This document shows, piece after piece, positions 2,717 through 27,899 of a DNA stretch of 30,251 bases. Position numbers and translations under genes: made by a program. The notes beneath the pieces are model-generated. The model did not search any database and was not told the DNA's origin. It was given only the letters and a program-made list of their open reading frames with translations. Location of the stretch: positions 1 through 30,251 of the IMG/VR virus record IMGVR_UViG_3300033144_006951; one strand, 5' to 3'. Within the stretch, counting starts at the first letter, position 1, and every line of letters begins with the position of its first letter. The DNA comes from a virus.

Positions 2717-2794
2717 ATGAAACTTACCAGTTTTCGTTGCAAACGAAGATATACTTTTCTCGATTTTAGGCTGTTCTGGAGTAAGGAGGATTAA
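2717..2794 (+). CDS. Possible 25-residue leader peptide
   Basis: An ATG follows a purine-rich GGGAGGGAGAGA stretch and opens a 25-codon frame (starts MKLTSFRCKRR, ends WSKED). Its TAA stop overlaps the ATG of the large terminase as TTAATG, and its last codons contain the terminase ribosome binding site AAGGAGG. This arrangement fits translational coupling. The peptide is basic and resembles no family. It could equally be chance in a leader. Confidence 0.35.
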   Translation: MKLTSFRCKRRYTFLDFRLFWSKED

Positions 2795-5283
2795 TGTATA
2801 GTCCTTATATAATGGGAAAGTTAAAGGAGTGGAGACGTTCTCCCTTAGTTTTCGTCAATGATTGCATAGATGTTACGCCATCTTCTCAGCAACTCGATTT
2901 CCTTGCACATGTTGCAAAGCATAAAAGAATCACTATTAGAAGTGGACATGGTTGTCATGCAAAGGGAACTGGTATTCATATGTTTCCTTACGGTTTTAAG
3001 GCAGTAGAGGACATAAAAGTTGGCGATAAGATACTCGGTGACGACGGCACAGTAAGAAATGTTCTTACTCTTTACCGTGGCAGGGAAGAAATGGCTCGAA
3101 TCAAGTATCATGATTCAACTTACTATGATGTAAACATGAGCCATATATTGTCTCTTGTTTGCACTGAGTCAAAGTCTGGGTTTGTGTCTGGTAAAAAATA
3201 CACTACGACAGTCCGTGAATACTTAGCTATGATAGAAGAAAGACCTTCATTGAAGGGAAGGTTTGCCGGGTATAAAGTTTCAGTTGATTATCCAAAAGTT
3301 CCAGTAATGATTCCACCATATATTTTAGGATTATGGCTTGGGAATGGAAATCATAGAAGAATAGAAATTACTAATATTGATCCTGGACCAATCAATGCTT
3401 GGATTGATTTTGCAGAAGCTAATGGACTAAAAGCAACTACAACTTGTGAGAAATTACATAAGTTATCAGGTAATGATAAAAATGCAGTGGTTGCTGCTTT
3501 TAAGTACTATAATTTATTAGGCAATAAACATATTCCAGTAGAATATATTTATAACAGCAAAGAAGTCAGGCTTCAACTTCTTGCTGGTTTAATTGATAGT
3601 GATGGGTATGTTGATAATAGAAGTAACAGTACGCAGTTTCAGATAGTTCAAAAAAGAAAAGAAATTGCTGAAGGTATTCATCTTATTGCAAGATCTTGTG
3701 GAATGCATTCAACCTTCTCAGAAAAAGAAAAAAACTGGACTTGTAAGGGGGTTAAAAAGTGGGGAACTTATTACGAAGTTAAAATAAGTAGAAATACTGA
3801 ACTAATTCCTACAAGGATTCCAAAGAAACAAGCAAGTGGAGATAGTATAAAACGAAGAAGTAATTTACACTTTGGGTTTACTGTGGAAAAGTTAGAGGAA
3901 GATTATTATTACGGTTTCGAACTTGATGGAAATAATCTTTATGTTCTAAGCGATTTTACAGTTACTCATAATACTGGAAAGGACGCCAGCGTTAGTTGGG
4001 CCATCTTATGGTTTCTTGCAACGAGGGCTTATGCAAAAGTAGCTTGTACTGCTCCCACAGCCAGACAACTATCAGATATCCTTTGGAGTGAACTTTCAAA
4101 GTGGATTAGGAAGTCGATTTTTGCCGATGAATTTGTAATCCAAAAGGACAAAGTCTTTCAGAAAGATAATCCAAAAGAATGGTGGTGCAGAGCAATATCA
4201 GTTTCTGCGAGATCTTCAAAAGAAGAACAAGCAGAAACACTTGCTGGACTACATGGAGATCATCTTCTCATTGTAGTTGACGAAGCTTCAGGAGTACATG
4301 ATCCAGTATTTATTCCTCTTGAGGGAGCACTTACTCAAGAGGATAATAAAGTAGTTTTAATCTCAAATATGACAAAAAATACTGGGTACTTTTATGAGAC
4401 GCATTTCCATAGTCAAATGAAAAAATCTTGGTATCAACTTCACTGGGATTCACGAAAGAGTACTAATGTAAATCCTGACTACTCAAATTATATGAGAATG
4501 AAATATGGAGAGGATTCGAATGTCTTTCGAATTCGTGTTGCTGGTGATCCACCACTCCAGGATGAAAATACTTTAATACCTCTCTGGGCAGCACAGCAAT
4601 GTATTGGGAATGAGTTTGAGGTAGCCGAAGATGAACCTCTTTTTCTTGGTGTTGATGTCGCAAGATATGGAGATGATGCTTCTGTTATTCTTCCAAGGAA
4701 AGGTTTAATAATTCAGCCCTGGGAAATTTTCAGAAAATTAAACACGATAGATCTTGGGGGATTTGTAAATCAGACATATCAAGAACTTGATGCGCAAGGA
4801 GTTGCAATTGATGTTATTGGAGTAGGTGCTGGAGTTTCAGATTGGTTGGCTAAAAGAAATATTGTTAATCTCTACGAAGTAAATGTAACACATGCTTCCA
4901 GTAATATTGAGAAATTCAATCGTCTTCGAGATGAACTTTGGTGTAGAGTTAGAGATAATTGCATTCTGGGAAAGTATTCTTTCCCTCTTCTAAAGGCACA
5001 GGGAGATACTGAGTCTTACGGAGAACAACTTGCGAATGAACTCGCTACTGTACGTTATACATTCAATTCTCAGGGTGGATATATTGTAGAGTCTAAGAAA
5101 GATTTAAAGTCAAGAGGAATTCCTTCTCCAAATATAGCTGATGCACTTGGACTTACTGAGTATTTTGCGAATAAAGCTACACGAGTTTTTAGCAAGGAGA
5201 AAGAAGAAAGTGATTATATTGGCAGACAAGGGTACTCAAATAGCTACAATACAATGTCTTCAACTTCGTGGTTAGGAAATTAA
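2794..5283 (+). CDS. terL: Terminase large subunit, intein-containing precursor
   Basis: ATP-driven DNA packaging motor and headful nuclease. The 829-residue precursor has an intein at residues 54-393, leaving 489 residues after splicing, close to the usual size for P22-like large terminases. The spliced N-domain reads SGHG joined to TGKDAS, a P-loop (Walker A) with Asp where Ser or Thr is usual. Walker B is LLIVVDEASG (Asp496, Glu497). The C-domain has RNase H-type nuclease acidic residues in FLGVDVARYGDD (Asp621), IDVIGVGAG (Asp673) and NIADALG (Asp783). The start ATG has AAGGAGG 7 bases upstream. The next gene begins almost at once. The assignment is firm; the exact packaging mode is not visible. 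Confidence 0.95.
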   Translation: MYSPYIMGKLKEWRRSPLVFVNDCIDVTPSSQQLDFLAHVAKHKRITIRSGHGCHAKGTGIHMFPYGFKAVEDIKVGDKILGDDGTVRNVLTLYRGREEMARIKYHDSTYYDVNMSHILSLVCTESKSGFVSGKKYTTTVREYLAMIEERPSLKGRFAGYKVSVDYPKVPVMIPPYILGLWLGNGNHRRIEITNIDPGPINAWIDFAEANGLKATTTCEKLHKLSGNDKNAVVAAFKYYNLLGNKHIPVEYIYNSKEVRLQLLAGLIDSDGYVDNRSNSTQFQIVQKRKEIAEGIHLIARSCGMHSTFSEKEKNWTCKGVKKWGTYYEVKISRNTELIPTRIPKKQASGDSIKRRSNLHFGFTVEKLEEDYYYGFELDGNNLYVLSDFTVTHNTGKDASVSWAILWFLATRAYAKVACTAPTARQLSDILWSELSKWIRKSIFADEFVIQKDKVFQKDNPKEWWCRAISVSARSSKEEQAETLAGLHGDHLLIVVDEASGVHDPVFIPLEGALTQEDNKVVLISNMTKNTGYFYETHFHSQMKKSWYQLHWDSRKSTNVNPDYSNYMRMKYGEDSNVFRIRVAGDPPLQDENTLIPLWAAQQCIGNEFEVAEDEPLFLGVDVARYGDDASVILPRKGLIIQPWEIFRKLNTIDLGGFVNQTYQELDAQGVAIDVIGVGAGVSDWLAKRNIVNLYEVNVTHASSNIEKFNRLRDELWCRVRDNCILGKYSFPLLKAQGDTESYGEQLANELATVRYTFNSQGGYIVESKKDLKSRGIPSPNIADALGLTEYFANKATRVFSKEKEESDYIGRQGYSNSYNTMSSTSWLGN
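2953..3972 (+). other. Terminase intein with LAGLIDADG endonuclease
   Basis: A 340-residue in-frame insertion that starts at Cys54 and ends ThrHisAsn (residues 391-393), followed by Thr394 as the +1 nucleophile: a standard class 1 arrangement. Block A is CHAKGTGIHMFPYGF; the splicing His lies in VNMSHILSL; block F is YYGFELDGNNLYVLSD. The centre holds two dodecapeptide motifs of a homing endonuclease: LGLWLGNGN and LLAGLIDSDGYV. In the first, the usual catalytic Asp is Asn184 (codon AAT). Cleavage is therefore doubtful, while all splicing residues look intact. The insertion point is inside the Walker A loop. Confidence 0.93.
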
Positions 5284-5285
5284 TT

Positions 5286-5474
5286 ATGGTTTCTAATAGT
5301 ATTATTGATGCTAAGTACGATAGTGATAATGAAATTCTTACAGTATTTTTTTGTGGCGGAGGTGTCAATACTTTTGGTGTCTCTAAGAAAACATATCTCG
5401 AAGCAATTCAAAAATTAATACGAAGTACTATCGTAGGAATAAAAATTAGTAAAGGCAAACTTAATGGCTATTAA
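5286..5474 (+). CDS. Small KTSC-like protein
   Basis: A 62-residue protein. The pattern SNSIIDAKYDSDNEILTVFF, then GGGVNTFGVSKKTYLEAI resembles the KTSC domain (a short beta-rich domain common in phages, often near portal or lysine-tRNA synthetase genes), though the final Ser-Lys-Gly part is weakly kept. The ATG at 5286 is chosen for the AGGA 8-11 bases upstream; a GTG at 5268 in the same frame has no site. It lies in the translation chain between large terminase and portal and overlaps the portal start by 11 bases. The function of the family in phages is not established. Confidence 0.6.
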   Translation: MVSNSIIDAKYDSDNEILTVFFCGGGVNTFGVSKKTYLEAIQKLIRSTIVGIKISKGKLNGY

Positions 5475-8409
5475 TCTAAAAGACGAAAAAATCATTAGGA
5501 AAGCTGTAGCCAGGTTAAAAAAAGCTATTGAGGATGATGGTGATAATCGTCAAGCTGCTAAGGATGATCTTGAATTCACTGCAATTGATGGGAAACAGTG
5601 GCCTGAATCTGTAAGAGCTGAAAGAGAAGCAGAAGGTAGACCTTGTCTTACGATTAATAAGATGCCTGTTTTTATTGATCAGGTTGTTGGTGACCAAAGG
5701 ATGAATCGACCTTCGATTAAAGTCTTTCCCGTTGATTCTTCTGGTGATAAAGCAATTGCTAATATTCTTAGTGGTTGGATTAAGCATGTACAACATATCT
5801 CAAAAGCTGATTCAGTGATTGATCACGGTTTTGAGCATGCAGTTACTTGTGGTTATGGAGCTTGGAGGGTTGTTACAAAATATGTTTCAGATAACTCATT
5901 TGATCAAGAAGCGTATATTCAAAAGATAGATAATGCACTTTCAGTGTATTGGGGAAAACATTCTGAGTATGATTGTTCAGATGCTCAATATTGTTTTATT
6001 GTCTCTGACATGGATAGGGATGAGTATAAGGATAAGTACAAAGAAGAACCTATCCCGTTTAAAGACTCTGACGATCAATTTGTAGATGGCTGGTCAACTA
6101 AAGATACTGTTAGAGTCGCAGAGTATTTTGTAAAAGAGAAAATATCTAAAACTATTTATCTTCTTGATGGTGGAGAAATTGTAGAGAAAGCAGAAATTGA
6201 CCAAGTTGTTTTAAAGCAGAGAAAAGTAGATGCTTTTAAAATTATGTGGTATCTTCTTTCGGGTGACAGGATACTTGATAGACGAGAGTGGCCAGGAAAG
6301 AAATATATTCCTATTGTCCCTGTCTGGGGAAAAGAACTTAATGTGGCTGGTAAAAGAGTTATTAGAGGTTTGATAAGAAATGCTAAAGATCCTCAAAGAA
6401 TGTTTAATTACTGGGAAGCACTTTCATTAAATACTTCACTGCCAACGCCTAATGGGTGGATTAAAATGGCAGATGTACAAATTGGACAACACTTATTTGA
6501 TGATAAAGGTAAAGTCTGTAATGTAACTGCAATTAGTCCAGTATTTAAGGATAGAGAATGTTCTGAAGTATTATTTGATGATGGATCTGTTATAACAGCA
6601 GATATAAAGCATCTATGGACTGTTGAAGAAAGAGGGAAAAGAACCAGCAAATCTTTCACATGGAATATAAAAACACTTACTACAGATCAATTAGTACCAA
6701 AGAAACATTTTATTTGGGTTACTGATCCATTGGTATTACCAGAGAAAGATTTTCTCATTCCTCCTTATGTATTAGGAACGTGGCTTGGGGATGGAAATAC
6801 GTCAGAACCCTGTATAACTCAAAGTCCTGAAGACTGGGAAGAATTAGTAAAGCATTTAAAATTTTTTGGCTGTGATATAAGGAAACCACGAAATAGTGGA
6901 ACTACTGTAGCATTTACAATGCTTGGTATGAGGAGTAAATTTATTGAACTTAATCTTCTTGAAAATAAGCATATTCCGTATTACTACATTAGAGGGTCGT
7001 TTAAACAAAGACTTGAATTACTTCAAGGTCTTATGGATACTGATGGATCTGTCGACCATTCAAGTGGCCAATGTAGTTTTACTACTATTCTTCCAGAACT
7101 TGCTAAGGGTTTTGCTGAACTACTTCGAACTCTCGGAATTAAAGTGAAATGTATTGTTCGAAATAAGAGTAAAAAAAGTAATGTCAATGCTTCTAAGTTA
7201 CAGTATCAATTTGATTTTACTACAAGACTTCCAGTGTTTAGGTTCGAAAGAAAATTAGCCAGTTTAGGAAAAGTAAAAGCTCAAAACAGAAGAACTGAGA
7301 GATACAGTATTAAAAGTATTACTTCAGTAAAATCTGAGCCAGTTAAATGTGTAACAGTAGATAGCAAATCATCATTGTATTTAGCTGGTATCGGGATGGT
7401 ACCTACACATAATTCAAGTGATACCGAGACAGTTGCACTGCAACCAAAATCTCCATACATTCTTACACCTACTCAAGTTGCTGGCCACGAGCAAATGTGG
7501 AAGAATTCGCTTAGAAAAAATTATCCTTACTTACTTGTTAGTCCTGATCGAGATGCTCCTGGATGGCCTAAAAGAGAAGCTCCTCCACAAGTTTCGAGTG
7601 CGATGGTCAATAAGATTCAAGGAACTGACCAAGAAATTAGAGACACTATAGGACTTCAAAAAGCTTCTCTTGGCATGCAAAGTAATGAAAGAAGTGGAAC
7701 TGCTATCAGGGAAAGAAAAAAAGAAGGAGATATAGGAACTTTTTCTTTCATTGATAATCTCGCAAGATCTGTTGAGCATACAGGTAGAATTTTAGTTGAT
7801 ATTGCTTCTGCGATTTTAGACACTAAAAGAGTCATTCGTATTGGTGGTGAAGATGATGATGATGTTAATTTTGTAACTGTAAATATGGTTACTCCTGACG
7901 GAAAGATTTTCAATGATCTTTCAATAGGAACTTATGATGTAAGAGTAACAGTTGGGCCATCATCTACGACACAAAGAACTGAAGCTCAAATTTCAATGAA
8001 AGAATTTATACAGTACTATCCAAGTGCAGCACCTGTTATTGGTGATCTTTATGCTAAATCAATGGATTGGCCTGGAGCTGAGAAAGTAGCTAAACGTCTT
8101 GAGTATCTTCTCCCACCTGTTATTAGAGAAGAAATTGAAGCTAAAAGAGCAGCCAAAGATGGGAATATAGAACCTCCTGTAGAAAAGCAAGAGGATCCTG
8201 GAGTTATTGCAGAGAGAGAGAAAGCAAGTATAGAATTGGAAGAAATTAAGGTTTCTTTAGAAGTTGAAAAAATTAAACTTGGACAAGAAAAAGCGAAACT
8301 TGAAACTATTAATCTCCAAAATGACTTGATTATTAAGGAGTCTAAAGAGAGTATTAAAATTATGATGGATGAGATTAACGCAGAGGGAGTTAAGAAGGAG
8401 AGTGAGTAA
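5464..8409 (+). CDS. Portal protein (P22-like), intein-containing precursor
   Basis: The portal forms the dodecameric ring at the unique head vertex through which DNA is packaged and ejected. The 981-residue precursor has an intein at residues 319-650; the mature protein would have 649 residues (P22 gp1 is about 725). Recognisable parts are the N-terminal DGKQWPESVRAEREAEGRP stretch, PQRMFNYW before the intein, TETVALQPKSPYI after it, and GTAIRERKKEGD. The extreme C-terminus (about 905-981) is a Lys/Glu-rich coiled coil, comparable to a portal barrel. The precursor must splice to restore NYWE-SSDTETVAL, which has the same spacing as in intein-free relatives. The stop overlaps the next start (TAATG). 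Confidence 0.95.
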   Translation: MAINLKDEKIIRKAVARLKKAIEDDGDNRQAAKDDLEFTAIDGKQWPESVRAEREAEGRPCLTINKMPVFIDQVVGDQRMNRPSIKVFPVDSSGDKAIANILSGWIKHVQHISKADSVIDHGFEHAVTCGYGAWRVVTKYVSDNSFDQEAYIQKIDNALSVYWGKHSEYDCSDAQYCFIVSDMDRDEYKDKYKEEPIPFKDSDDQFVDGWSTKDTVRVAEYFVKEKISKTIYLLDGGEIVEKAEIDQVVLKQRKVDAFKIMWYLLSGDRILDRREWPGKKYIPIVPVWGKELNVAGKRVIRGLIRNAKDPQRMFNYWEALSLNTSLPTPNGWIKMADVQIGQHLFDDKGKVCNVTAISPVFKDRECSEVLFDDGSVITADIKHLWTVEERGKRTSKSFTWNIKTLTTDQLVPKKHFIWVTDPLVLPEKDFLIPPYVLGTWLGDGNTSEPCITQSPEDWEELVKHLKFFGCDIRKPRNSGTTVAFTMLGMRSKFIELNLLENKHIPYYYIRGSFKQRLELLQGLMDTDGSVDHSSGQCSFTTILPELAKGFAELLRTLGIKVKCIVRNKSKKSNVNASKLQYQFDFTTRLPVFRFERKLASLGKVKAQNRRTERYSIKSITSVKSEPVKCVTVDSKSSLYLAGIGMVPTHNSSDTETVALQPKSPYILTPTQVAGHEQMWKNSLRKNYPYLLVSPDRDAPGWPKREAPPQVSSAMVNKIQGTDQEIRDTIGLQKASLGMQSNERSGTAIRERKKEGDIGTFSFIDNLARSVEHTGRILVDIASAILDTKRVIRIGGEDDDDVNFVTVNMVTPDGKIFNDLSIGTYDVRVTVGPSSTTQRTEAQISMKEFIQYYPSAAPVIGDLYAKSMDWPGAEKVAKRLEYLLPPVIREEIEAKRAAKDGNIEPPVEKQEDPGVIAEREKASIELEEIKVSLEVEKIKLGQEKAKLETINLQNDLIIKESKESIKIMMDEINAEGVKKESE
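6418..7413 (+). other. Portal intein, class 3 type, with LAGLIDADG endonuclease
   Basis: A 332-residue insertion beginning ALSLNTSLPTPNGW with no Cys, Ser or Thr at position 1. It carries the three class 3 signature residues: Trp385 two residues after the block B His (KHLW), Cys629 in block F (VKCVTVD) and Thr648 before the terminal HisAsn (PTHN), then Ser651 as +1. Class 3 inteins use the block F Cys as first nucleophile. Two endonuclease motifs are intact: LGTWLGDGN (Asp443) and LQGLMDTDGSV (Asp527), so homing may be active. The Ala1 boundary rests on the spacing of the flanking portal sequence. Confidence 0.9.
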
Positions 8410-13198: not shown

Positions 13199-13668
13199 TG
13201 CCTGGCAGATTTTCGTATGAGATAGATTCTACTAAATTGGCTGTTGGGCTGCGAAGTAGTCCAAGAGGAATACGAGGAAAGGATCATCTTATTACGTCTA
13301 AGGGGGCAATTGTAAAAGATGGAATTCTTGTTTCTATAGATAAACTTACTCGACTCGCTACTACTGTTATAACAGATGTTTTCCCTTATCCCCAAATATT
13401 TGTTTTTGTGAATTCTGTAATTGTTTGCAGCAGTACAAAAATTTATGAATGGGTTGATGGAGCGTTAGTTTTTAAACTTACAACTACTGCAGGAAGTACA
13501 TGGTCTGCTGTTGATTTCTATAACTATGTTTACATGAGTAATGGAGTGGTAGCAGTTGTGCGGGATAGTGATAGTGAGGAATATAGCATTACGACTAATT
13601 TACCTACTGCTAACTGTGTGGTGAATTTTAATGGCCAGGTTATTGTTGGGTCACCAGGAGCAGCTTAA
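13198..13668 (+). CDS. Tail hub/stabilisation-type structural protein, N-terminal form
   Basis: About 157 residues beginning PGRFSYEIDSTKLAVGLRSS. The motifs LRSSPRGIRGKDHLIT, TRLATTVITDVFPYPQIFVF, KIYEWVDGALVFKLT and STWSAVDFYNYVYMSNGVVAVV are kept in podovirus tail proteins located where P22 has gp10, and look like beta-propeller blades. The start is uncertain: GTG at 13198 overlaps the previous stop (TAGTG), and a GTG at 13189 is in the same frame; neither has a clear ribosome site. The stop overlaps the next ATG (TAATG). It may work together with the next protein, as a fused or split partner. Confidence 0.65.
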   Translation: MPGRFSYEIDSTKLAVGLRSSPRGIRGKDHLITSKGAIVKDGILVSIDKLTRLATTVITDVFPYPQIFVFVNSVIVCSSTKIYEWVDGALVFKLTTTAGSTWSAVDFYNYVYMSNGVVAVVRDSDSEEYSITTNLPTANCVVNFNGQVIVGSPGAA

Positions 13669-15959
13669 TGAGTTGGATTGATGATAATAAGGGTCAGGGG
13701 CCTTGGGAGCTTCAAAAGCAACCTGATAAACTTGGGTATGTAAATAACCCCTTCTGGACTAAGACTGCTACCGGCAAACATGACCCTTGTGGCTATTGGC
13801 TAACAGGAGATAATTTTAAAGTTACTACATATACTAATTATATACAGGGGACTGGTTGGATTTTCAAAGCACCTACAATAACTAATGTTTTTGGCAATGC
13901 TTTAGCAACACATGACTCACAGATATATGGTTTCTCTATTCTCCCTGATACGCTAGCGAAGTGGAATAATATTAACGCTTGGGAGAACATTGGTAGTTAT
14001 TCACCAGTAGACCAAAATCAAAGTCCAGATATAATTTCTTTTGGTGAAAGTTTGTATGTTCTCTACAGTTACATATATAAAAATGAGATATTTCGTATAG
14101 TTAATAATTCTTTCGTTTTGTTTAATTCTGGTTTTGGTATAATGCTTAGAAGGCTTATTGGATATCACGATGTATTGTACGCTACAGATACCCATAAAAG
14201 CCAATTATTTAGAGTACTTGATGGAGCTTGTGTAGCATATACTGATAACTGGACTGATGGCCTATTAGCTAATATTGTTTATAACGATCTTCTGTTTTGT
14301 GCGACTTTTGGTGGAAGCGCTCATGACCTCTATAGTTGGGATGGGAATGATGGCAGCAATTTTATACTTAGAGCAACTCTGAATTTTGGTACTGGAGGGG
14401 TTATACAACTTATAGAGTACAACGAGGAGCTATATATTTTCGGGAAGTATAGTCTTGGATACAAGATGCATAAATGGAATGGAGTAGATGCAGTAGAGTT
14501 TGTGTGTAATTGTCCTACACATTTTCCGTTGACAGATAATTTTGCTGTAGTATATGGTAATAGACTTCATTATATTGATGAGAATGGAATATTATATATT
14601 TTTGACGACACAACAAAAGAGTTTACTGCACTAACAGCAGAAATAACTTCTTCTGGCCAATTTACAAGATTGATTATTCATAATAATCTTATATACGCTG
14701 ACTTAGCAGGCAGTTTATATGAGTACAATGGGTATATAAATGAAGTGACGAGAAAAGAATATATTAATAACATACTATCTGTAGATAATGCAGTATGGCC
14801 GTTCGAGAAGTCAGTACAAAAGCCTAATTATAATGAGGGAAACTTAATCAGTACCTACGCTAATCCTGTATGGAATAATGAGCACTTAGGAACTGCTATC
14901 ACTAAGCAGCATAAACCTTGTGGGTACTGGACTAAGAATTATATTCCACCAAAAGCTCCACTTCCACCTCCAACCTATAATTGGATTACTGCTATATTTC
15001 ACAATCCTCCACAAATGGTTGCGAAGATAAATTATTCATCTGGTGAGATAGGGGATAATGGTATTTTTGATATAACTCCTCCAGTTATATCTGCAATTGG
15101 TTATAATCCAGTAGTATATAAAGATTATTTATATGCTGCTGTGAAAGACGGTGATGATCAACTTGTTCTTGTAAAGTTTAATCTTGTTACTATGACTGTG
15201 GAAGATACTTTAATTATCATACCGCCAAATAGTTTTAACTTTCCCACATGCCACTGTCTCCGAGAAAATATTCTTTACATTGGCGTGCAATCTACATATC
15301 CAGGTATTAGTGATAGAGAGAGAGTCTATGAGATAGATTTAGATTCTTTTACCACATTACGTAGTGTAGGTCTTTATTACGGGTATGGTAGTGTACATAC
15401 TATTATCGCTACTGGCTCTATGCTGTATGTTTTTGTTGGCTACGGTGTATTTCCTGTTTACCTGTCTAACTTTTTGAAAGGTACCTATGGCATGATAGAA
15501 TATGATACGTTTAATAATTCTGTCGTATGCAATAAAGTAGGTACGGAATGCATTGTGACAAATAATAGTTATACAGTGTATAGAGTTTCTCTTACAGATC
15601 CTCCAGTTATACTCGAAACTAAAGCAGTGTTATTTTTAACACGGTCTCACTCAGTTATGTTAGATGCTAATAATTACGCTTATTTTGGCGATAAAAAGCA
15701 AGCAAAAATTCACCGCATTAATATGAGTATTTTTGATGATTTTGTAGATTTTGATTATTCTTCTTTTGGCATGGATGCTCCATTTAATAGTTTACAGTAT
15801 GCTGAGGGGAAGGGATTCTTTGTCAGTAATAATACCTGGTATGAAGACTCTTATAGAAAGATAGTAAAAATGGATTTAGCAACTATGGAAGTTGATTCAA
15901 TAATCAGCTTACCAATAGATCCTTACGTTGATACTATACATAGTATTGTAATCTCGTGA
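13668..15959 (+). CDS. Large repeat-rich tail protein, beta-propeller-like
   Basis: 763 residues, rich in Tyr, Asn and Ile, with repeated short beta strands (for example LYSWDGN, LYEYNGY, MHKWNGV). It starts MSWIDDNKGQGPWELQ. A motif NPFWTKTATGKHDPCGYW at about residues 27-44 recurs as NPVW with KQHKPCGYW at about 399-421, so the protein looks like two similar halves joined by a Pro-rich linker (PPKAPLPPPTYN). This suggests an internal duplication of an anchor plus propeller. Likely part of the tail, possibly receptor contact. No signal peptide or enzyme motif is seen. Confidence 0.6.
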   Translation: MSWIDDNKGQGPWELQKQPDKLGYVNNPFWTKTATGKHDPCGYWLTGDNFKVTTYTNYIQGTGWIFKAPTITNVFGNALATHDSQIYGFSILPDTLAKWNNINAWENIGSYSPVDQNQSPDIISFGESLYVLYSYIYKNEIFRIVNNSFVLFNSGFGIMLRRLIGYHDVLYATDTHKSQLFRVLDGACVAYTDNWTDGLLANIVYNDLLFCATFGGSAHDLYSWDGNDGSNFILRATLNFGTGGVIQLIEYNEELYIFGKYSLGYKMHKWNGVDAVEFVCNCPTHFPLTDNFAVVYGNRLHYIDENGILYIFDDTTKEFTALTAEITSSGQFTRLIIHNNLIYADLAGSLYEYNGYINEVTRKEYINNILSVDNAVWPFEKSVQKPNYNEGNLISTYANPVWNNEHLGTAITKQHKPCGYWTKNYIPPKAPLPPPTYNWITAIFHNPPQMVAKINYSSGEIGDNGIFDITPPVISAIGYNPVVYKDYLYAAVKDGDDQLVLVKFNLVTMTVEDTLIIIPPNSFNFPTCHCLRENILYIGVQSTYPGISDRERVYEIDLDSFTTLRSVGLYYGYGSVHTIIATGSMLYVFVGYGVFPVYLSNFLKGTYGMIEYDTFNNSVVCNKVGTECIVTNNSYTVYRVSLTDPPVILETKAVLFLTRSHSVMLDANNYAYFGDKKQAKIHRINMSIFDDFVDFDYSSFGMDAPFNSLQYAEGKGFFVSNNTWYEDSYRKIVKMDLATMEVDSIISLPIDPYVDTIHSIVIS

Positions 15960-16902: not shown

Positions 16903-19071
16903 GTGTCTAAAATTAATACGAATATTTTTAGTGCAGCACAGAAGATAAAATCTATTTCTATACCTCCATCAAGAATAGAAGAAAAACTTGTCACTTCTTA
17001 CCCTGGTTCTTCGTTCGGTTTAGGAGAAAAAAGTTGGGTATATAATGATTTTGACTTAGGTAGACAGTTTCATAGTGTAACTACTAACGGAGAAATTTTT
17101 TGCGCCATAGGTACAAATTCTACAGGACCTTTCATTGCCTCATCTACTAATGGTCTTAATTGGACACTAAGATACACTACTTCTTTTAGCTATGCAGAAT
17201 GTTTTATTACATGGGAAAATAATTTATTTTTAGCTTGCGCTGGTAGGCATATATTAACCTCTCCAGATGGAATTACTTGGACTTTACAAACATCAGATTT
17301 AATTAGAGCAGTTAATTCAATAACTTATGGGAATAACCTATTTGTCGGAGTTGGTGCTGATGCTTATATAGTAACTTCTCCAGATGCAGCTATTTGGACT
17401 CTGCGAACTCCACCAAAACATTATACTCTAATTACTGTAGCGTACGGCAATGGAGTATTTGTTGCTGGGGGGCAACAAAAAGATTTTGGGTTAAACTCTT
17501 ATTTATTAACCTCAGCAGATGGTATTACTTGGACCGAGAGAGCAATTAATTCATGGTCATCTATTAGGGATATAGTCTGGGACGGCAATAAATTTTACGC
17601 TGTAACAGCTCCATCGTATATTACAAGTGATATGCATGTTGGAATACAGTATTATACTATTTATACATCTGATGATGGCATTACTTGGTCGTACTTTAGA
17701 ACTGTTCCTGGTGGTCGTACCTTACATGGTGTAGGTGGATATGATGGAAATATATGCGTAGTAGGTACTGATGGATTTGCTTTTGCTGACATACTTGTTG
17801 ATGGAGTTTGGGTAGCTGTTTCAGGGGGAGTTAAGAGAGGACAATTTCTAGATGTTGTCTATGATAGAGTAAATGATCTTTTTTGCAGTGTTGGGTATGA
17901 TGGTGCTTACGGGTCTTACTCAGCTATACTTGTATCGCAGAGTAAGGCTATCAATAAGGTTGGGGTTAGTTCTATAGGTGTTATAAGTGCTCCTGGAACA
18001 GGTGCAGATGCCGGGCCCGCAGCGCAAGTAAATACTGATGCTACATTAAGTTTTAATTGGTACAATAAAGATATAGATGGTCTTAGTGTTGTCTCGTATG
18101 GGAATTTCACTCGTCATATTACAACTGATATTGATACTGAAGATAATGGAATATTAGTCATCAGTTCGTATGGTACGTTAAATACGGGTAAAAAGTTTTC
18201 TGTGGATGCTGTGACTAAGCTATCTGTAGTAAGTGCAGGAGATATACGGACAGACGTACTTAAGAATAATTGGGTTAAGTGGTCTAACATTGGAAGTCTT
18301 GATTTCACAATAGGTAGAGATAACGTAGCAGGAGAAAGACCACTTGACTGGAGTGGTATGATTTATTGTGTAAAGAAACTTAATGGTAAAATTGTTGTTT
18401 ATGGCGAAAATGGCGTTTCATTCTTAATCCCTTCTGGAGTTGCTTTTGGGCTTAAAACTATTTATAGGATAGGACTTAAAGGAAAATGTGCAATTGCTGG
18501 AAATGAGTCAAAACATTTTTTCATAGATAATTCTGGAAAGCTTTGCGAAGTGTCAGATACTTTTCGGGTGCACGATTTTTCTGAGTACCTTTCTAAGTTA
18601 ACTTCTAACCTTGTAATGTCATATGATGAGCTTGAAAATTTCATTTATATTTGTGATGGGTCACTGGGATATGTATTTAATACTGTAACAAGTAACCTTG
18701 GCGGATGTTCATCAAACATAACCGGGATTGGTTATAAAACTGGCATACAGTATGTTGCAGCATCGAATACTATCTCAGTAGACCCATTCGAAATATGCAC
18801 TGGAATTTATGACTTAGGGGAAAGAGCAAATAAAACAATATTTTCTCTTGAACTTGGCGTGAGTTTAGAAAATGCACTTTATGTTGCAATTGATTACAGA
18901 AGAATAAAATCTTCTAACTTTGTACAGACTCCCTGGAAGTTAGTTCCACCTAATGGAAGAGTTAATATAATTGCTTGGGGAGTGGAATTTAGGTTTAGAG
19001 TTAAAGTGCTTGAGTATGAGTATTTTGAACTTAATTATATCAGAGTTAATGGGGTGTTAAATGCTTACTGA
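16903..19071 (+). CDS. Tail protein: propeller repeats joined to a P22 gp10-like hub region
   Basis: 722 residues, GTG start with GGGGAGG upstream. Residues about 79-265 contain five blades marked by WT motifs: TNGLNWTLR, SPDGITWTLQ, SPDAAIWTLR, SADGITWTER and SDDGITWSYF, an Asp-box-like propeller pattern. The C-terminal part (about 455-722, from IGSLDFTIGRDNVAGERP) with IYCVKKLNGKIVVYGENGV and IDYRRIKSSNF resembles the gp10-type hub proteins of podoviruses, which cap the head and hold the tail. The combination suggests a hub with a surface propeller. Its stop overlaps the next ATG by 11 bases. The gp10 link is from motif memory. Confidence 0.6.
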   Translation: MSKINTNIFSAAQKIKSISIPPSRIEEKLVTSYPGSSFGLGEKSWVYNDFDLGRQFHSVTTNGEIFCAIGTNSTGPFIASSTNGLNWTLRYTTSFSYAECFITWENNLFLACAGRHILTSPDGITWTLQTSDLIRAVNSITYGNNLFVGVGADAYIVTSPDAAIWTLRTPPKHYTLITVAYGNGVFVAGGQQKDFGLNSYLLTSADGITWTERAINSWSSIRDIVWDGNKFYAVTAPSYITSDMHVGIQYYTIYTSDDGITWSYFRTVPGGRTLHGVGGYDGNICVVGTDGFAFADILVDGVWVAVSGGVKRGQFLDVVYDRVNDLFCSVGYDGAYGSYSAILVSQSKAINKVGVSSIGVISAPGTGADAGPAAQVNTDATLSFNWYNKDIDGLSVVSYGNFTRHITTDIDTEDNGILVISSYGTLNTGKKFSVDAVTKLSVVSAGDIRTDVLKNNWVKWSNIGSLDFTIGRDNVAGERPLDWSGMIYCVKKLNGKIVVYGENGVSFLIPSGVAFGLKTIYRIGLKGKCAIAGNESKHFFIDNSGKLCEVSDTFRVHDFSEYLSKLTSNLVMSYDELENFIYICDGSLGYVFNTVTSNLGGCSSNITGIGYKTGIQYVAASNTISVDPFEICTGIYDLGERANKTIFSLELGVSLENALYVAIDYRRIKSSNFVQTPWKLVPPNGRVNIIAWGVEFRFRVKVLEYEYFELNYIRVNGVLNAY

Positions 19072-21381: not shown

Positions 21382-22950
21382 ATGGCAGGTAGTTTTCTAA
21401 AACGCAAATATGATACACCTAAAAGATATAAAATTGATAAGTATGGAAGGACAATTAGTCCTGGGGTAAAGACATTTAAAATTGGTAAGGGGGGAAGAAT
21501 ACCTTACGCAATACGACTTCCAGGAGAAGTAGCTGGTGGCAGTAGAATACCTATAAACATCCTTAGAAATAGAACTTCAGGGCAAATTGGAGATACTGTT
21601 CTCGGGGAAGTTAAACCTGTTGTCACAGAACCTATTGTTACGAAACCTGTTGTCACGGAACCTGTTATTCCTAAAACTTCTAACACTTTGCAAGCTAAGC
21701 AAACTATGCCACAGGTAACTGTTGCTCCACACGTAACTACTACTTTACCAGTATCGGAAATTCCTAGTCCAGATGTTACTTCTATACCAGTAACGCAGAA
21801 AGAAGCAGTTGAGAGTGCAACTATTCCTACACAACTTCCAATGGATAAGGAAGATGCTTACTGGGCTCAAAAAGTAGGGAAGACCGGAATTTCACTTGAT
21901 AAGTTTGTCCAGTTAGCTGGTATGGTATCAGGTGCTATTGTTCCTGAGAGTCCTCAAAGTAGACTTGGCGAGCAGTTATCTGCGATGGGTGGTAAAGCTT
22001 ATGCTGGAAGGATTGGTAGAGAACGTGATGCACCTAATGTTTTGCTACAAAGAAGGCTTGCTGAAGCACGATTGGCAGATATAGAAGGAACAAGTCCCAA
22101 TGCATTACTTAAGAGGCGTAATTTAGAAGCAGATGCTAAAACTAAAGAAGAAATGCTTAGCGATCTTATATCTGGCCGTGAAGGGAAAAAAGAAACAGCT
22201 GCTCAGATTGCTAAGAAAAGAAGACTTGAGATACAAAAATTAGAGTATGACCTTAAAAATCCTGATATTCCGTATAAAGATAAATGGACATCTTATACAG
22301 CTGAGGCTACTGCTGCTGGTATTCCCATGGAGCAACAGTTGAAAAAATTTACTGAGGCCACCACACTTAAAAGTAGGGGTAATAATTATCATTACGTTAA
22401 GAATGCTGCCGGTGGCATGGATATTTATCTTAATGGGAAATTGTTATCAGGTACTGGAACGTACATTGGCGAGGATTCTGCTGGTACAACAAGTGAACTT
22501 ACAAAGCCAACTGAGAAGCAGATTACAGATGCTGCTGTTGCTATAGAATCAGGTGTTGGTATTACTGCAGCTCCTCTCGTCAATATGGTTAATAGATACA
22601 ATACTGAAGGTTATGCTTACGTACGAGAAGGAGAAGGTGAAAGACGTGGAGCTATACCGTTTACTAAATTCGGTATCGTACCCTGGTCTAATAAGGGAGA
22701 GTGGGTTAAGCAAGAACTCCCAGTTATTGATGGCGAACAAATGACTGGACCGAAACTTGAAGCATGGTCAGAAGCTGCTGACGTGCCATTTGATCAAGTA
22801 TTACAATATGCTCTTACTTTTAAAACTGATACTACAAAACCTTACACTGAAAAAGACTTACGTAGTTTATTAGAAAAAAAGAAAGAGACTGATCCTACTA
22901 TTGATATTGAGAGAGCTTTAAAAAGTTATAGCTTAGGAGGTGCATATTAA
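21382..22950 (+). CDS. Putative internal virion protein
   Basis: 522 residues. An N-terminal basic part is followed by short Pro/Val/Thr repeats (PVVTEPIVTKPVVTEPV, about residues 78-96), then a region beginning QKVGKTGISLDKFVQLAGM with a helical, coiled-coil-like stretch (RRLAEARLADIEGTSPNALLKRRNLE) and a less distinctive C-terminal part. Its place between the glycine-zipper proteins and the giant protein fits an ejection-complex component. No enzyme motif is seen. It ends TAATG, coupled to the next gene. Confidence 0.5.
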   Translation: MAGSFLKRKYDTPKRYKIDKYGRTISPGVKTFKIGKGGRIPYAIRLPGEVAGGSRIPINILRNRTSGQIGDTVLGEVKPVVTEPIVTKPVVTEPVIPKTSNTLQAKQTMPQVTVAPHVTTTLPVSEIPSPDVTSIPVTQKEAVESATIPTQLPMDKEDAYWAQKVGKTGISLDKFVQLAGMVSGAIVPESPQSRLGEQLSAMGGKAYAGRIGRERDAPNVLLQRRLAEARLADIEGTSPNALLKRRNLEADAKTKEEMLSDLISGREGKKETAAQIAKKRRLEIQKLEYDLKNPDIPYKDKWTSYTAEATAAGIPMEQQLKKFTEATTLKSRGNNYHYVKNAAGGMDIYLNGKLLSGTGTYIGEDSAGTTSELTKPTEKQITDAAVAIESGVGITAAPLVNMVNRYNTEGYAYVREGEGERRGAIPFTKFGIVPWSNKGEWVKQELPVIDGEQMTGPKLEAWSEAADVPFDQVLQYALTFKTDTTKPYTEKDLRSLLEKKKETDPTIDIERALKSYSLGGAY

Positions 22951-25900
22951 TGACTGATGCATATGATCCTCTTGAACTGTTCGAAAAGGCAGAAAAAAGT
23001 ATGCCAGAACAATCTATCATTCAAAGGATGTCTAAGATTCCTGGGAGAGTAGATTCTGGAGTATATGACCCTCTCAAAATAATACGAAAAGATGGCAGTA
23101 TAATTCCACCTCCTCCTAAAATTGATGAACCTTCAATAGGTAAAGATTTTATAAAACCAACATTAGAGGCTGTTCCCAAGATTGTAGCAACAGGTTTACT
23201 TGAAATACCTGCAGTTACAGCTGGGTTAGCTACCCATCCTATGCGAATGGCGAAAGATATCAGCACAAGTCTCGGGGAGGTGATGCCTAAGACTTGGAGT
23301 CCTGATATGTCAGTGGAGGAAAAGAATGTAATAATCAGGAAATTTAAATCTGCTGGAATGAAGGGGTTAGCAAAAGCTGCAGAAGGTACTAAGAAGTTAA
23401 TGGCAGCACCTGTTACTGTTTTATTAAAAACTGAAGCAGAAAGAAAGGGTTTTGAGAATGTGATGAAACCCATGTCTTGGTTTTTTAATAATGCAGCAAG
23501 AGGATGGGGAGCACTCGCAGAATTAGACGTAACGGGGTCACTGTCAAAAGCTGCTAAAGTAGCTACTGGAGAGTCAGAAGGTTCACATATTATAGTTCCT
23601 ATTCTAAAAGCTGTTGGCGAAACTGCAGGAATGTTCGCTCTTAGTGGAGCGATAAAAGGGATTAGAGGTTCTAAGTGGTACAAGAGTTTAAATAGAAGAG
23701 AAAAACAATATGCTGATGCTACTATAGAAAGTGAAGTAGATGAGAGAGCAGAAGCTACGAAGGCAGAGAAAACTACCGAGAAGAAATTTAAAGCAGAAAG
23801 TAAAAAGGAATTTAAAACAGAAGCAAAAAAACATACATATAGAGAAGAAGTCTTCACTGAGAAAGAATCTGGTCCTGAAAGAGAATATACTTTTGCAGAG
23901 AAGTTAAGAGAGCGTGAAAGAGAAAGAAGAAAGAATCTTTCTAAAGAAAGTAAGAAAGAACAGGCTGAGAAAGTAAGAAATATTAGGAGAGAGTGGGCGG
24001 ATAAAGCTAAAAGAGAAGAACTTTTACGAAAACATGTTGGTGTTGATCCCGCTGAAACTATGGCGAGAGCTGCTGAGGAAGCAGCAAGGGAAGTTAAAGA
24101 AAAAGAAGTAGGAGCAAAGGAGGAAGCAGTTCCAGGAGAAGAAGTTCCAGGGGAAGAAGTGGGTATGCCTGCTGTGCAAGAAGTTCCTAAGCAAGAAGGG
24201 GAAGGGTTAGTCACTCAGGAATCACTTTCTAAATCTCTCCTCAGAGAAGTCATGCAGGAAAGAGGAATTAAACGTGTTCCTCGAATTACTGATGAGATTC
24301 CAGAGGCAGAGATTCTCTCTACCGAGATGATTGAGAGGTTAGAGGCTAATAAGCCAGGTAATTCGATTCCGAAATTAAAAGATAGTGGAGTCCCAGCTAT
24401 TAGAAAAAGAACTGATGAAGTTGTTATTGATGGAAAGAAGGTCGTAAAGGTTCCTAAAGTTATTAAAGCCTCTGAAACTAAAACTGCAGTCTTGTCTAAA
24501 GTCAAAGCTGAGAAACACAGAAAACATAAAGCAAAAATAAACGCTATACGTACTGATGCTAATGTTTCAAAAGTTAAATCAACCGCTCAAAAATTAGTAA
24601 AGACTACTAAAACTGTTGATTTAGCTGATTATGATAAGGATAAAGTTGAGCATTTTGAAAGTAGGATAAAGGAAATAGAGCCATTAGAAAAACCAGTAAA
24701 AAAAGAGAGAGATACAATAAATAAAGCAGCACTTAAAGCTGGAGGAATAATCAAAAGAAAAAAGAATTTTAAATCTTCCGGAGTGTATATTGCAACTTTT
24801 GGTAAAGAGGAAGTTGAGTTAAGCACTGCTTACAATAAAAAAGTTGCAAAGTGGCACGTAAAATATCCAGGTGGTAAATGGGAACCAGCTGGTGAATCTC
24901 CGTCTGAGTTTATTCCTAAGATTAAAGAAAGACTCATCATACCAGAAGAAGTTGTTAAAATCTTAGATTACGAAGGTATTGTAGATGGGGCTAAGTTTTA
25001 CGAAGAAGATGCTATTGAATACTTAGAAGCTAAGTATAATAAAAAGGCTGGTGAAGATTTTATAAGGTATAAAAAACTTTATACTCAAAATCGTCAATCA
25101 AAGGCTTTTGCTAAAGTAGTTAAAGAGCAAAATGCTATAATTGATAGTCTTGGTGCTACTAAAATACATAAAGTACTGACGAAAGCTCAGAAAGATTTCG
25201 TCAAGCCAGAGACACTAAAACGAAAGGTTAGAGAGTTATTTATCAATGAAGTTATAAGTGGTGCTGAATATGTCCAGGCGCATGCGAAGTTAAGTAAAGG
25301 CGATTTAACTGGTGTTGAGGAAATAATTAAGACTGCCGAAAAAGAACCCACAGAGATAAAAATACCAGATGTTGTCACAAAATTAGTAGTTGAGGAAATA
25401 GGTGGTAAAGTATTTGAGAGTGGGAAAGACACCTACAAAGAATGGACTGACGAAATGCAGAAGTTGCTTGGTAATAAGTGGGGGAAAAATAAACTCTCTG
25501 CTAAACTTTTCTGGGACAAAGTACTTAAACCTATTACGAACCAAAGAGGTTTCGTTGTAATCAGGCAAGGCGATAAAATAGAGAGGTATAAACGATTAGG
25601 CTTTAATACCTCTAAATTGCATGTACCAGTAGGATTCGATAAACATCTTGGAATAATGTCGACAAGACTTAAGAATATTGATCCAGTATTTAAGTACAAG
25701 TTGAGAAAGTTTGAATTGACTAATTTGCTACGTATTTTTAGGTGGGAAGATGGAGTAATTCCTATGTTTGTCGCAGCAAAAAAGAAAATGAATAAGTTTG
25801 ATTACAACGCTTTTGATATTGCAAGGAAAAATAGTGATGTTGCAATACTTAAAGTCTTAACGAAAAAGTATAATATTGGAAAAGAGTATAATAGATATTC

Positions 25901-27515
25901 TGCAACAATGAGAGAGATAGAAATGTTTGCAAGGAAATTAGGTTTCAGGTTTAAACATGTGAAGAATTTTCATTCAAGACAGGTTATTAAAGTAAGTAAA
26001 TATCTTGATTATCTTCATGGTACTGATGCACGATCTACTATCGAATTTCTAATTGATAAGAGAAATAAAAAGTTAGTGCAAGAAAAGAAACCTCTAATGA
26101 CTGAAGATGAGAAAGCAATATATATCGGACAGATACTTAGAGGAGTCCACGGTGACAGAATAACGTTGTCTAAACCTGGGCAGTTAAAGATGAGGACAGT
26201 AGAAAACGTTACTATGAAGACGAATAAATTCTATGCACATTCTGACTCAGCTACTTTAAAGTATATTAGAGATATATCAGAGGCGCTAACTGCTGCTGAG
26301 TTATTCGGAAAAGGCGGAGGGATTAAGGGAAGAATTCCTACACCATCTGAATCAATCGGACAAGTTGTTCTTGATTTATTGCAGAAGAGGGAGATAACTC
26401 CTTCCCAAGAAACTCAGCTTACAAGAATGTTAAATGCAAGATTTAATAGAAAAACACCAAGTGCAGTTATGCGTGGATTTAAAGATATAACATATCTCAC
26501 ATTAATGGGAGATATATTCTCGGGTATTCAGCAGATAGGTGATATAGCATACGCTGTTTATGACACTGGGCCATTGCAGACTATTAGATCATTTAAACAT
26601 GTTCTTAGTAAAACGAATGTGATGGAGATGAGAGACTATGGACTTAATACGATTGGAGCAGAGTTTATAGATAAGAGTGTACTGAGTAATCTTGTCGATA
26701 AAACTTTTGTTGTTAATGGCGTTAGAGGATTTGACTATTTAGGTAAAGATATTTTAGGAGATGCACTTTACTACACTGCAGTCAGAAGAGCGAGAAATCC
26801 TAAAAAATATACTAAGTTTGTAAAAGAACTCGACGAAGCTACACTAGGACTCGGGAAGGAAACGTTAGAAGATTTTAAAATGGAAAGGAAAACATATGGT
26901 ACTTTACTTTACGTATTCAATAAAATAAGTGATAGACAACCTATTACGCCACTCGAATTGACTGAAATGCATGCAAAGGGTGGTAACTGGAGTATTATGT
27001 ATGTTTTTAAAAGTTTTCCATTGAAAAGACTTGATGTATTCAGGACAGAGTGTTTTGAGCAAATGAAAACGAAAAATACAAGACTTCTGGGAATAAGGAA
27101 TCTTATTCATTTAACTGCACTACTCACGTTGGCTGATGCTACATTAGATACAGTAAGAGATTTTTTGCTTGGAAGACCTTTTGACTTATCTGGAACTGTA
27201 ATTAGTAATCTATGGCAAATGGCTGGTGCAACTAAATTTCTTCTACCAGCTGTAAAAAGAGAAGGTGCGGGTACAGCACTCATTCATCAACTACTTCCAC
27301 CTGCAAAAGTTTTTGATGATGTCTCAAGAGACATATTTAATGGCCCTGGAGAATACGGACTCAGGAGCGTTTCAGATATTCCGCTTGCTGGAAGATCTAT
27401 TTCAAGTAGAGTAGGGAGAGAGAAGTCACTGAGAGATAAGAAGAATAAGGGACTAAGAGGAAAATCAAGTTATTCTGGGTATTCATCAGCGTATAGTAGT
27501 AAGACGACAAACTAA
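22950..27515 (+). CDS. Giant internal virion protein
   Basis: 1521 residues, the largest gene. The N-terminus holds short hydrophobic stretches (APVTVLLKTEAERKG, then IIVPILKAVGETAGMFALSG); residues about 250-400 are Lys/Glu-rich and low in complexity, including a PGEEVPGEEV repeat. The C-terminal third (from about 1170, KTPSAVMRGFKDITYLTLMG) with RQPITPLELTEMHAKGGN, a hydrophobic helix pair (IRNLIHLTALLTLADATLD) and SDIPLAGRS near the end resembles the C-terminal region of the very large internal proteins of podoviruses. These are ejected with the genome. A lytic transglycosylase domain is sometimes present in relatives; I do not see clear catalytic motifs here. Confidence 0.65.
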   Translation: MTDAYDPLELFEKAEKSMPEQSIIQRMSKIPGRVDSGVYDPLKIIRKDGSIIPPPPKIDEPSIGKDFIKPTLEAVPKIVATGLLEIPAVTAGLATHPMRMAKDISTSLGEVMPKTWSPDMSVEEKNVIIRKFKSAGMKGLAKAAEGTKKLMAAPVTVLLKTEAERKGFENVMKPMSWFFNNAARGWGALAELDVTGSLSKAAKVATGESEGSHIIVPILKAVGETAGMFALSGAIKGIRGSKWYKSLNRREKQYADATIESEVDERAEATKAEKTTEKKFKAESKKEFKTEAKKHTYREEVFTEKESGPEREYTFAEKLRERERERRKNLSKESKKEQAEKVRNIRREWADKAKREELLRKHVGVDPAETMARAAEEAAREVKEKEVGAKEEAVPGEEVPGEEVGMPAVQEVPKQEGEGLVTQESLSKSLLREVMQERGIKRVPRITDEIPEAEILSTEMIERLEANKPGNSIPKLKDSGVPAIRKRTDEVVIDGKKVVKVPKVIKASETKTAVLSKVKAEKHRKHKAKINAIRTDANVSKVKSTAQKLVKTTKTVDLADYDKDKVEHFESRIKEIEPLEKPVKKERDTINKAALKAGGIIKRKKNFKSSGVYIATFGKEEVELSTAYNKKVAKWHVKYPGGKWEPAGESPSEFIPKIKERLIIPEEVVKILDYEGIVDGAKFYEEDAIEYLEAKYNKKAGEDFIRYKKLYTQNRQSKAFAKVVKEQNAIIDSLGATKIHKVLTKAQKDFVKPETLKRKVRELFINEVISGAEYVQAHAKLSKGDLTGVEEIIKTAEKEPTEIKIPDVVTKLVVEEIGGKVFESGKDTYKEWTDEMQKLLGNKWGKNKLSAKLFWDKVLKPITNQRGFVVIRQGDKIERYKRLGFNTSKLHVPVGFDKHLGIMSTRLKNIDPVFKYKLRKFELTNLLRIFRWEDGVIPMFVAAKKKMNKFDYNAFDIARKNSDVAILKVLTKKYNIGKEYNRYSATMREIEMFARKLGFRFKHVKNFHSRQVIKVSKYLDYLHGTDARSTIEFLIDKRNKKLVQEKKPLMTEDEKAIYIGQILRGVHGDRITLSKPGQLKMRTVENVTMKTNKFYAHSDSATLKYIRDISEALTAAELFGKGGGIKGRIPTPSESIGQVVLDLLQKREITPSQETQLTRMLNARFNRKTPSAVMRGFKDITYLTLMGDIFSGIQQIGDIAYAVYDTGPLQTIRSFKHVLSKTNVMEMRDYGLNTIGAEFIDKSVLSNLVDKTFVVNGVRGFDYLGKDILGDALYYTAVRRARNPKKYTKFVKELDEATLGLGKETLEDFKMERKTYGTLLYVFNKISDRQPITPLELTEMHAKGGNWSIMYVFKSFPLKRLDVFRTECFEQMKTKNTRLLGIRNLIHLTALLTLADATLDTVRDFLLGRPFDLSGTVISNLWQMAGATKFLLPAVKREGAGTALIHQLLPPAKVFDDVSRDIFNGPGEYGLRSVSDIPLAGRSISSRVGREKSLRDKKNKGLRGKSSYSGYSSAYSSKTTN

Positions 27516-27525
27516 AGGAGAAAAA

Positions 27526-27888
27526 ATGAGAGCGTTAGAATTATTTGATAATGAGATAATTGTAGCAGGTGGATGGATAGAAAGTTTTGACATAGACCTC
27601 AAGTATATTGAACCTCTTGAAGGATATTTTTCAGCTCAAGTTAAACTTACTGGTACAGGAAAGGTAAAGATTTCTTACAGTTCTTCTAATGACGGTGAAG
27701 ATTTTATTAACCAATCTACTACTGTTGATCTAATCAGTGAAGAATTTACAGCTACAAGTGGTCCAAAGTCTAATGGAAAAGACGTTATTTCTTTCTCTCC
27801 TGAGCCATCAAGATTTTTGAAGCTTAGAATCGAAGAGATTGGTGCTGTTAATCCTGTTACTGTTTCAGCTACATTACTTGCAGCGTAA
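27526..27888 (+). CDS. Small phage structural protein
   Basis: 120 residues. The pattern GYFSAQVKLTGTGKVKISYSSSNDGEDFI, then TSGPKSNGKDVISFSPEPSRFLKLRIEE is a beta-sandwich of a family often encoded near tail fibres in phages. There is no enzymatic motif. It has an AAAGGAGA site and ends 11 bases before the fibre gene. Probably a virion surface or tail-attachment protein. Confidence 0.65.
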   Translation: MRALELFDNEIIVAGGWIESFDIDLKYIEPLEGYFSAQVKLTGTGKVKISYSSSNDGEDFINQSTTVDLISEEFTATSGPKSNGKDVISFSPEPSRFLKLRIEEIGAVNPVTVSATLLAA

Positions 27889-27899
27889 GGAGATATTAC

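Follow-up and report, generated by a model that had tools for sequence, protein, structure and literature searches.

A class 1 intein in the terminase and a class 3 intein in the portal of one uncultured phage: probably two separate mobile elements

Introduction

Do two inteins lying close to each other in the large terminase (TerL) and the portal of one phage form a joint control of head assembly, or are they mobile elements that have merely accumulated in neighboring genes? This question is raised by an uncultured phage represented by an IMG/VR virus record; the sequence studied (30,251 bases, hereafter the window) encodes both proteins in the following open reading frames (ORFs):

2794-5283, plus strand: TerL ORF, an open reading frame of 829 aa
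5464-8409, plus strand: ORF of the P22-type portal, an open reading frame of 981 aa

The inteins interrupting these ORFs are 2,445 bp apart, so the spacing of about 2.4 kb given in the initial annotation of this DNA is borne out by computation. Searches of the 30,251-base window revealed no third intein. Further downstream, 3' of the head genes, there are large ORFs at 13668-15959, 16903-19071 and 21382-29588 (763, 722, 522, 1521 and 562 aa), which gave no confident family match; these probably encode tail and ejection proteins.

Host Genes and Empty Insertion Sites

PHROGs assigned the two ORFs to the terminase large subunit and the portal, respectively. Profile searches, proposed in the initial annotation as a check, recovered the Pfam families Hom_end_hint (2e-16), Hom_end (1.4e-14) and LAGLIDADG_3 (9.6e-8) in the TerL ORF, and P22_portal (1.2e-169), LAGLIDADG_3 (3.3e-9) and Hom_end (1.3e-6) in the portal ORF; the portal exteins also match P22 and Sf6-type portal structures. 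For both TerL and the P22-type portal, the family match is accompanied by intein-free homologues with the same flanks.

The junctions were set with the help of relatives fetched from viral contigs. In the intein-free homologues, the N- and C-exteins adjoin directly (gap of 0 nt), both in TerL and in the portal: TerL genes lacking the intein read RSGHG|xGK uninterrupted (the bar marks the insertion point), and intein-free portals of the same type read through NYW|x|S-type flanks. Hence, both insertions are precise at the codon level. The zero-gap empty sites, the Pfam and PHROGs profiles and the solved relatives (see below) substantiate the earlier claim of two inteins residing in TerL and the portal, and the boundaries then proposed fall exactly on the empty sites, so that the mature lengths would indeed be 489 and 649 aa.

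The TerL Intein and Its Endonuclease

The first intein occupies aa 54-393 of its ORF, so that its removal would leave a mature TerL of 489 aa. The insertion point lies in the Walker A loop (SGHG|TGKD), and the gene is arranged as follows:

2794..2952, plus strand: TerL N-extein, 53 aa, ending ...RSGHG in Walker A; adjoins the C-extein in intein-free relatives
2953..3972, plus strand: TerL intein, 340 aa, Cys1...VTHN, class 1 with a LAGLIDADG endonuclease (Pfam, PI-SceI matches, same-site relatives)
3142..3144, plus strand: block B His64 of the TerL intein (N61xxH64), kept in all same-site relatives
3343..3345, plus strand: Asn131 (AAT) replacing the catalytic Asp of the first LAGLIDADG motif; Asp in 11/11 same-site relatives
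3601..3603, plus strand: Asp217 of the second LAGLIDADG motif, intact by sequence comparison
3973..5283, plus strand: TerL C-extein, starting T(+1)GKDAS, with the stop codon (PHROG terminase; 56-73% identity to relatives)

The insertion bears the class 1 signature, i.e., C1, N61xxH64, H339-N340 and T+1. The Cys1, His and Asn residues are retained in 12 TerL inteins, the penultimate residue being Arg in some of them. Among solved structures, PI-SceI/VMA1 inteins match the TerL intein best, and the alignment with an intein-containing V-ATPase chain covers even the Gly directly preceding the intein. Judging from its sequence, the insertion is a class 1, PI-SceI/VMA-like LAGLIDADG intein, for which splicing is predicted. 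The +1 residue is Thr or Cys in all 12 intein-bearing TerL, and Val, Ile, Pro or Ala, residues unable to serve as the +1 nucleophile, stand at this position in 11 of the 26 distinct intein-free TerL contexts.

The endonuclease of this intein retains the fold and the Pfam family matches and bears the D131N replacement, which leaves Asp217 as the catalytic Asp of its two motifs. Compared with that of L045, the endonuclease part of the window TerL intein is 3 to 14 points less conserved against each of eight reference inteins, and the difference between the two is smaller in the Hint part. In comparable pairs of relatives, dN/dS is about 0.10-0.17 in the Hint and endonuclease halves alike, the window's own dN/dS being near saturation (dS about 1.2). 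The endonuclease domains of both intein families thus appear to be generally under purifying selection, as expected of mobile elements. Still, the D131N replacement and the faster divergence of the endonuclease half suggest decay in the window: its TerL intein is probably a homing element whose cutting activity has been or is being lost while splicing is still needed. By analogy with PI-SceI, a D-to-N copy is presumably inactive. Alternatively, the AAT codon at 3343-3345 could be a sequencing or assembly error.

The Portal Intein

The second intein spans aa 319-650 of the portal ORF, its removal giving a mature portal of 649 aa, and comprises the following features:

5464..6417, plus strand: portal N-extein, 318 aa, ending ...FNYWE (P22_portal 1.2e-169; P22 and Sf6-type structures)
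6418..7413, plus strand: portal intein, 332 aa, Ala1...PTHN, class 3 with a LAGLIDADG endonuclease (6rix/6bs8 matches, same-site relatives)
6559..6561, plus strand: Cys48, at the position of the redox-trap Cys48 of M. smegmatis DnaBi1 (ungapped alignment)
6616..6618, plus strand: Trp67, W of the WCT triplet (6rix/6bs8 alignment, same-site relatives)
6790..6792, plus strand: Asp125 of the first LAGLIDADG motif, intact by sequence comparison
7042..7044, plus strand: Asp209 of the second LAGLIDADG motif, intact by sequence comparison
7348..7350, plus strand: Cys311, block F nucleophile, C of WCT (6rix/6bs8 alignment, same-site relatives)
7405..7407, plus strand: Thr330, block G, T of WCT (6rix/6bs8 alignment, same-site relatives)
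7414..8409, plus strand: portal C-extein, starting S(+1)SDTE, with the stop codon (P22_portal profile, relatives)

The class 3 hallmarks A1, W67 (Trp B:12), C311 (Cys F:4) and T330 (Thr G:5) are all present, along with a DxxH block B and THN preceding Ser+1, and the intein aligns with the class 3 DnaB inteins 6rix and 6bs8. The WCT triplet and all splicing residues are retained in 8/8 same-site portal inteins, in some of which the first residue is Arg instead of Ala. A Ser or Thr at +1 is nearly always available in P22-type portals. The portal endonuclease possesses both catalytic Asp residues (Asp125 and Asp209). The insertion is therefore classified as an Ala1 class 3 intein with a complete WCT triplet, predicted to splice. 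Thus, the classes initially ascribed to the two inteins (Cys1 class 1 in TerL, Ala1 class 3 in the portal) agree with the signature residues and the alignments to solved inteins. AlphaFold models of the inteins were poor (mean pLDDT 60.4 and 46.2, from alignments of 5 and 3 rows); Foldseek searches with them ranked PI-SceI top for both inteins and listed class 3 DnaB inteins among the portal matches, lending the class assignments weak, model-based support.

Since residue 316 of the window portal aligns with residue 332 of the P22 portal, the insertion falls at approximately residues 334-335 (P22 numbering), i.e., within the stem (320-343), with some ten residues left before the clip (344-398). 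Both regions of the portal are probable interaction sites for the terminase motor (PMC12005531). Even sampling of 747 phage records gave 60 relatives of the portal intein, not one of which carries a portal annotation; class 3 inteins in portals may thus be unreported so far, 60 relatives being a small sample.

Occupancy among Relatives and the Question of Joint Control

Both inteins split functional cores of proteins meeting at one vertex: TerL is interrupted in the Walker A loop and the portal in the stem by the clip, so it can fairly be inferred that two splicing reactions would be required for packaging. It was proposed in the initial annotation that splicing might act as a timing control. 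In the form considered here, neither the portal nor TerL would become active before a late stage of infection, or before a redox or stress state permits both to splice. The distribution of the inteins bears directly on this proposal. The occupancy set comprised 28 records with both genes of the window type, or 20 after near-identical ones were merged by hand. Among the latter, both inteins were present in three, only that of TerL in three, only that of the portal in one, and neither in 13. The double carriers represent three separate lineages (the window; 3300005326 with 3300027419; 3300035456), slightly above expectation, which would hint at some link between the inteins, but the association falls short of significance (Fisher p = 0.06, relatedness ignored).

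Nor do the histories of the two inteins coincide. On the extein tree, five changes are needed for the TerL intein and four for the portal intein, with separate gains and losses, so that the 20 lineages do not display a pair gained and kept together. In L062 and L066, the portal intein even resides beside an unrelated, uninterrupted TerL. Identity of the portal intein does not correlate with that of its extein (rho -0.11), and the correlation is moderate for TerL (rho 0.54); the pairs are non-independent, so both values are descriptive.

A mechanistic argument for joint timing comes from Cys48 of the portal intein: in DnaBi1, likewise a class 3 intein, the corresponding residue is one partner in a demonstrated redox trap (PMC6195587). 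The residue that DnaBi1-like regulation would require is there in addition to the catalytic Cys, and it is conserved in 8/8 portal inteins. However, Cys48 is also found in 6/10 other phage class 3 inteins and is therefore not diagnostic of conditional splicing; its interpretation as a special trait of the portal intein was rejected on the same grounds. Moreover, no counterpart of the Cys48 trap was identified in the TerL intein, and nothing in the sequence indicates coordination of the two. It is highly unlikely that a Cys48-Cys311 disulfide gates portal splicing while the P-loop intein of TerL idles the motor, delaying packaging until conditions are right; if this were true, the repeated double occupancy would reflect selection. 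Overall, joint timing is improbable: most close relatives package DNA without either intein, and single carriers exist in both directions. The proposal made in the initial annotation is accordingly not supported, although the sequence would be compatible with regulated splicing.

Several observations concern the wider gene neighborhood. In L053, L057, L062, L064 and L066, portals 63-68% identical to that of the window are located next to an unrelated terminase, suggesting that each of the two genes is exchanged as a module of its own. The record L023 (3070-5188) harbors two tandem TerL-like genes, the first divergent (31% identity, C-extein) and the second at 70%. In a distant TerL, that of Salmonella phage 66FD (L188), the Walker A loop likewise harbors an insert, probably a class 3 intein, but shifted by three residues towards the C-terminus (GHGIGK|A...THN|S); the P-loop of TerL is hence a target of different inteins at neighboring positions. 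The intein-free relatives L191, L192 and L193 were binned in MAGs labelled Brevinema, Desulfobacterales and Micrarchaeota; since these labels disagree, at least some of them must be misbinned.

Origin and Fate of the Two Inteins

A further possibility is that splicing has been lost in one of the inserts or in both, which would then remain in the protein as a tolerated domain. Intein pseudogenes are indeed known, e.g., the Arthrobacter Arth_1007 intein (PMC3196547), but all splicing residues are kept here, dN/dS is low in the Hint halves of the relatives, and neither protein would be expected to function with an insert in Walker A or in the portal stem, making this explanation very improbable. 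That ectopic homing within the phage gave rise to one intein from the other, making them a pair by descent, is scarcely conceivable: the 27-30% identity shared by the two inteins (over about 230-290 residues) could speak for it, but their splicing classes differ, and the intein tree contradicts it.

In this tree, the two inteins belong to separate lineages, falling into two starred, deeply separate clades: the first unites class 1 inteins located in the P-loops of ATPases, terminases and helicases among them, and the second unites class 3 inteins. Each of the two is nearest to inteins of other phages. Their initial description as unrelated-looking holds as far as the deep separation of the clades is concerned but is too strong in view of their mutual identity; on the sequence evidence, they are distant cousins acquired separately.

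The best explanation, to which we assign a probability of roughly 0.87, is that two genuine full-length LAGLIDADG inteins entered the phage independently, the TerL endonuclease probably being in decay, so that the pair would represent accumulation and not a joint switch. Each intein occurs without the other in relatives, which argues for mobile passengers independent of each other and against a coordinated switch. By the known mechanisms, Cys1 of the TerL intein would attack the N-junction, the acyl group would pass to Thr+1, and Asn340 would cyclize. In the portal, Cys311 would attack the N-junction, Ser+1 would take over, and Asn332 would cyclize. The mature 489-aa TerL and 649-aa portal would accordingly be formed post-translationally. 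Both elements may have persisted by homing into conserved, indispensable sites (the Walker A loop and the portal stem), from which they could not be lost imprecisely without breaking the gene. The TerL endonuclease of the window phage is probably losing its activity (D131N), and both catalytic Asp residues persist in that of the portal.

Comparison with Known Systems and Implications

The TerL intein resembles PI-SceI/VMA1 of S. cerevisiae in its class (class 1, Cys1), NxxH block B, two-motif LAGLIDADG endonuclease and location in a P-loop following a Gly; it differs in length (about 340 vs. 454 aa), phage TerL host, Thr+1 and the change of the first catalytic Asp to Asn. Terminase P-loop inteins are well known (PMC5050341): the same type of site and the same broad clade are shared by other phage inteins, e.g., mycobacteriophage TerL1-a/b (PMC5050341), helicases of Salmonella and Klebsiella phages, and TerL of Salmonella phage ST46. 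Many of the phage P-loop inteins lie between Lys and Thr of Walker A, whereas that of the window TerL is positioned four residues earlier (G-x-G|x-G-K), as in phage ST46. The portal intein shares Ala1, WCT, DxxH, THN, Ser+1 and Cys48 with the mycobacterial class 3 DnaB inteins MchDnaB-1 and MsmDnaBi1; the latter, however, are mini-inteins in a helicase, whereas the portal intein has an endonuclease and sits in the portal stem.

Portal inteins are already known in C1 mycobacteriophages, and the combination of a portal intein with a terminase intein is on record for one phage: like the window phage, mycobacteriophage ET08 (cluster C1) bears them in gp79, a portal by PHROGs (1878 bits), and in the terminase gp239. 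Unlike those of the window, both ET08 inteins are Cys1 (class 1-like), the protein families and sites are different, and the genes lie far apart. In cyanophage Mic1, the packaging machinery likewise contains two inteins differing in type, but both reside in one protein, TerL (PMC7156551), and a biosensor role has been proposed for them (PMC7156551). Against this background, the occurrence of a class 3 family in P22-type portals is somewhat new, as is the pairing of a class 1 with a class 3 intein.

The findings add a same-site class 3 family in P22-type portals as well as a TerL P-loop family. Empty sites, single carriers and double carriers together constitute a natural series with which one can ask if the inteins of phages are mere parasites or affect assembly. 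Since the sites are in the ATP-binding loop and the clip-adjacent stem, direct assays of ring assembly and ATPase activity could be run on the precursors as well as on the spliced proteins.
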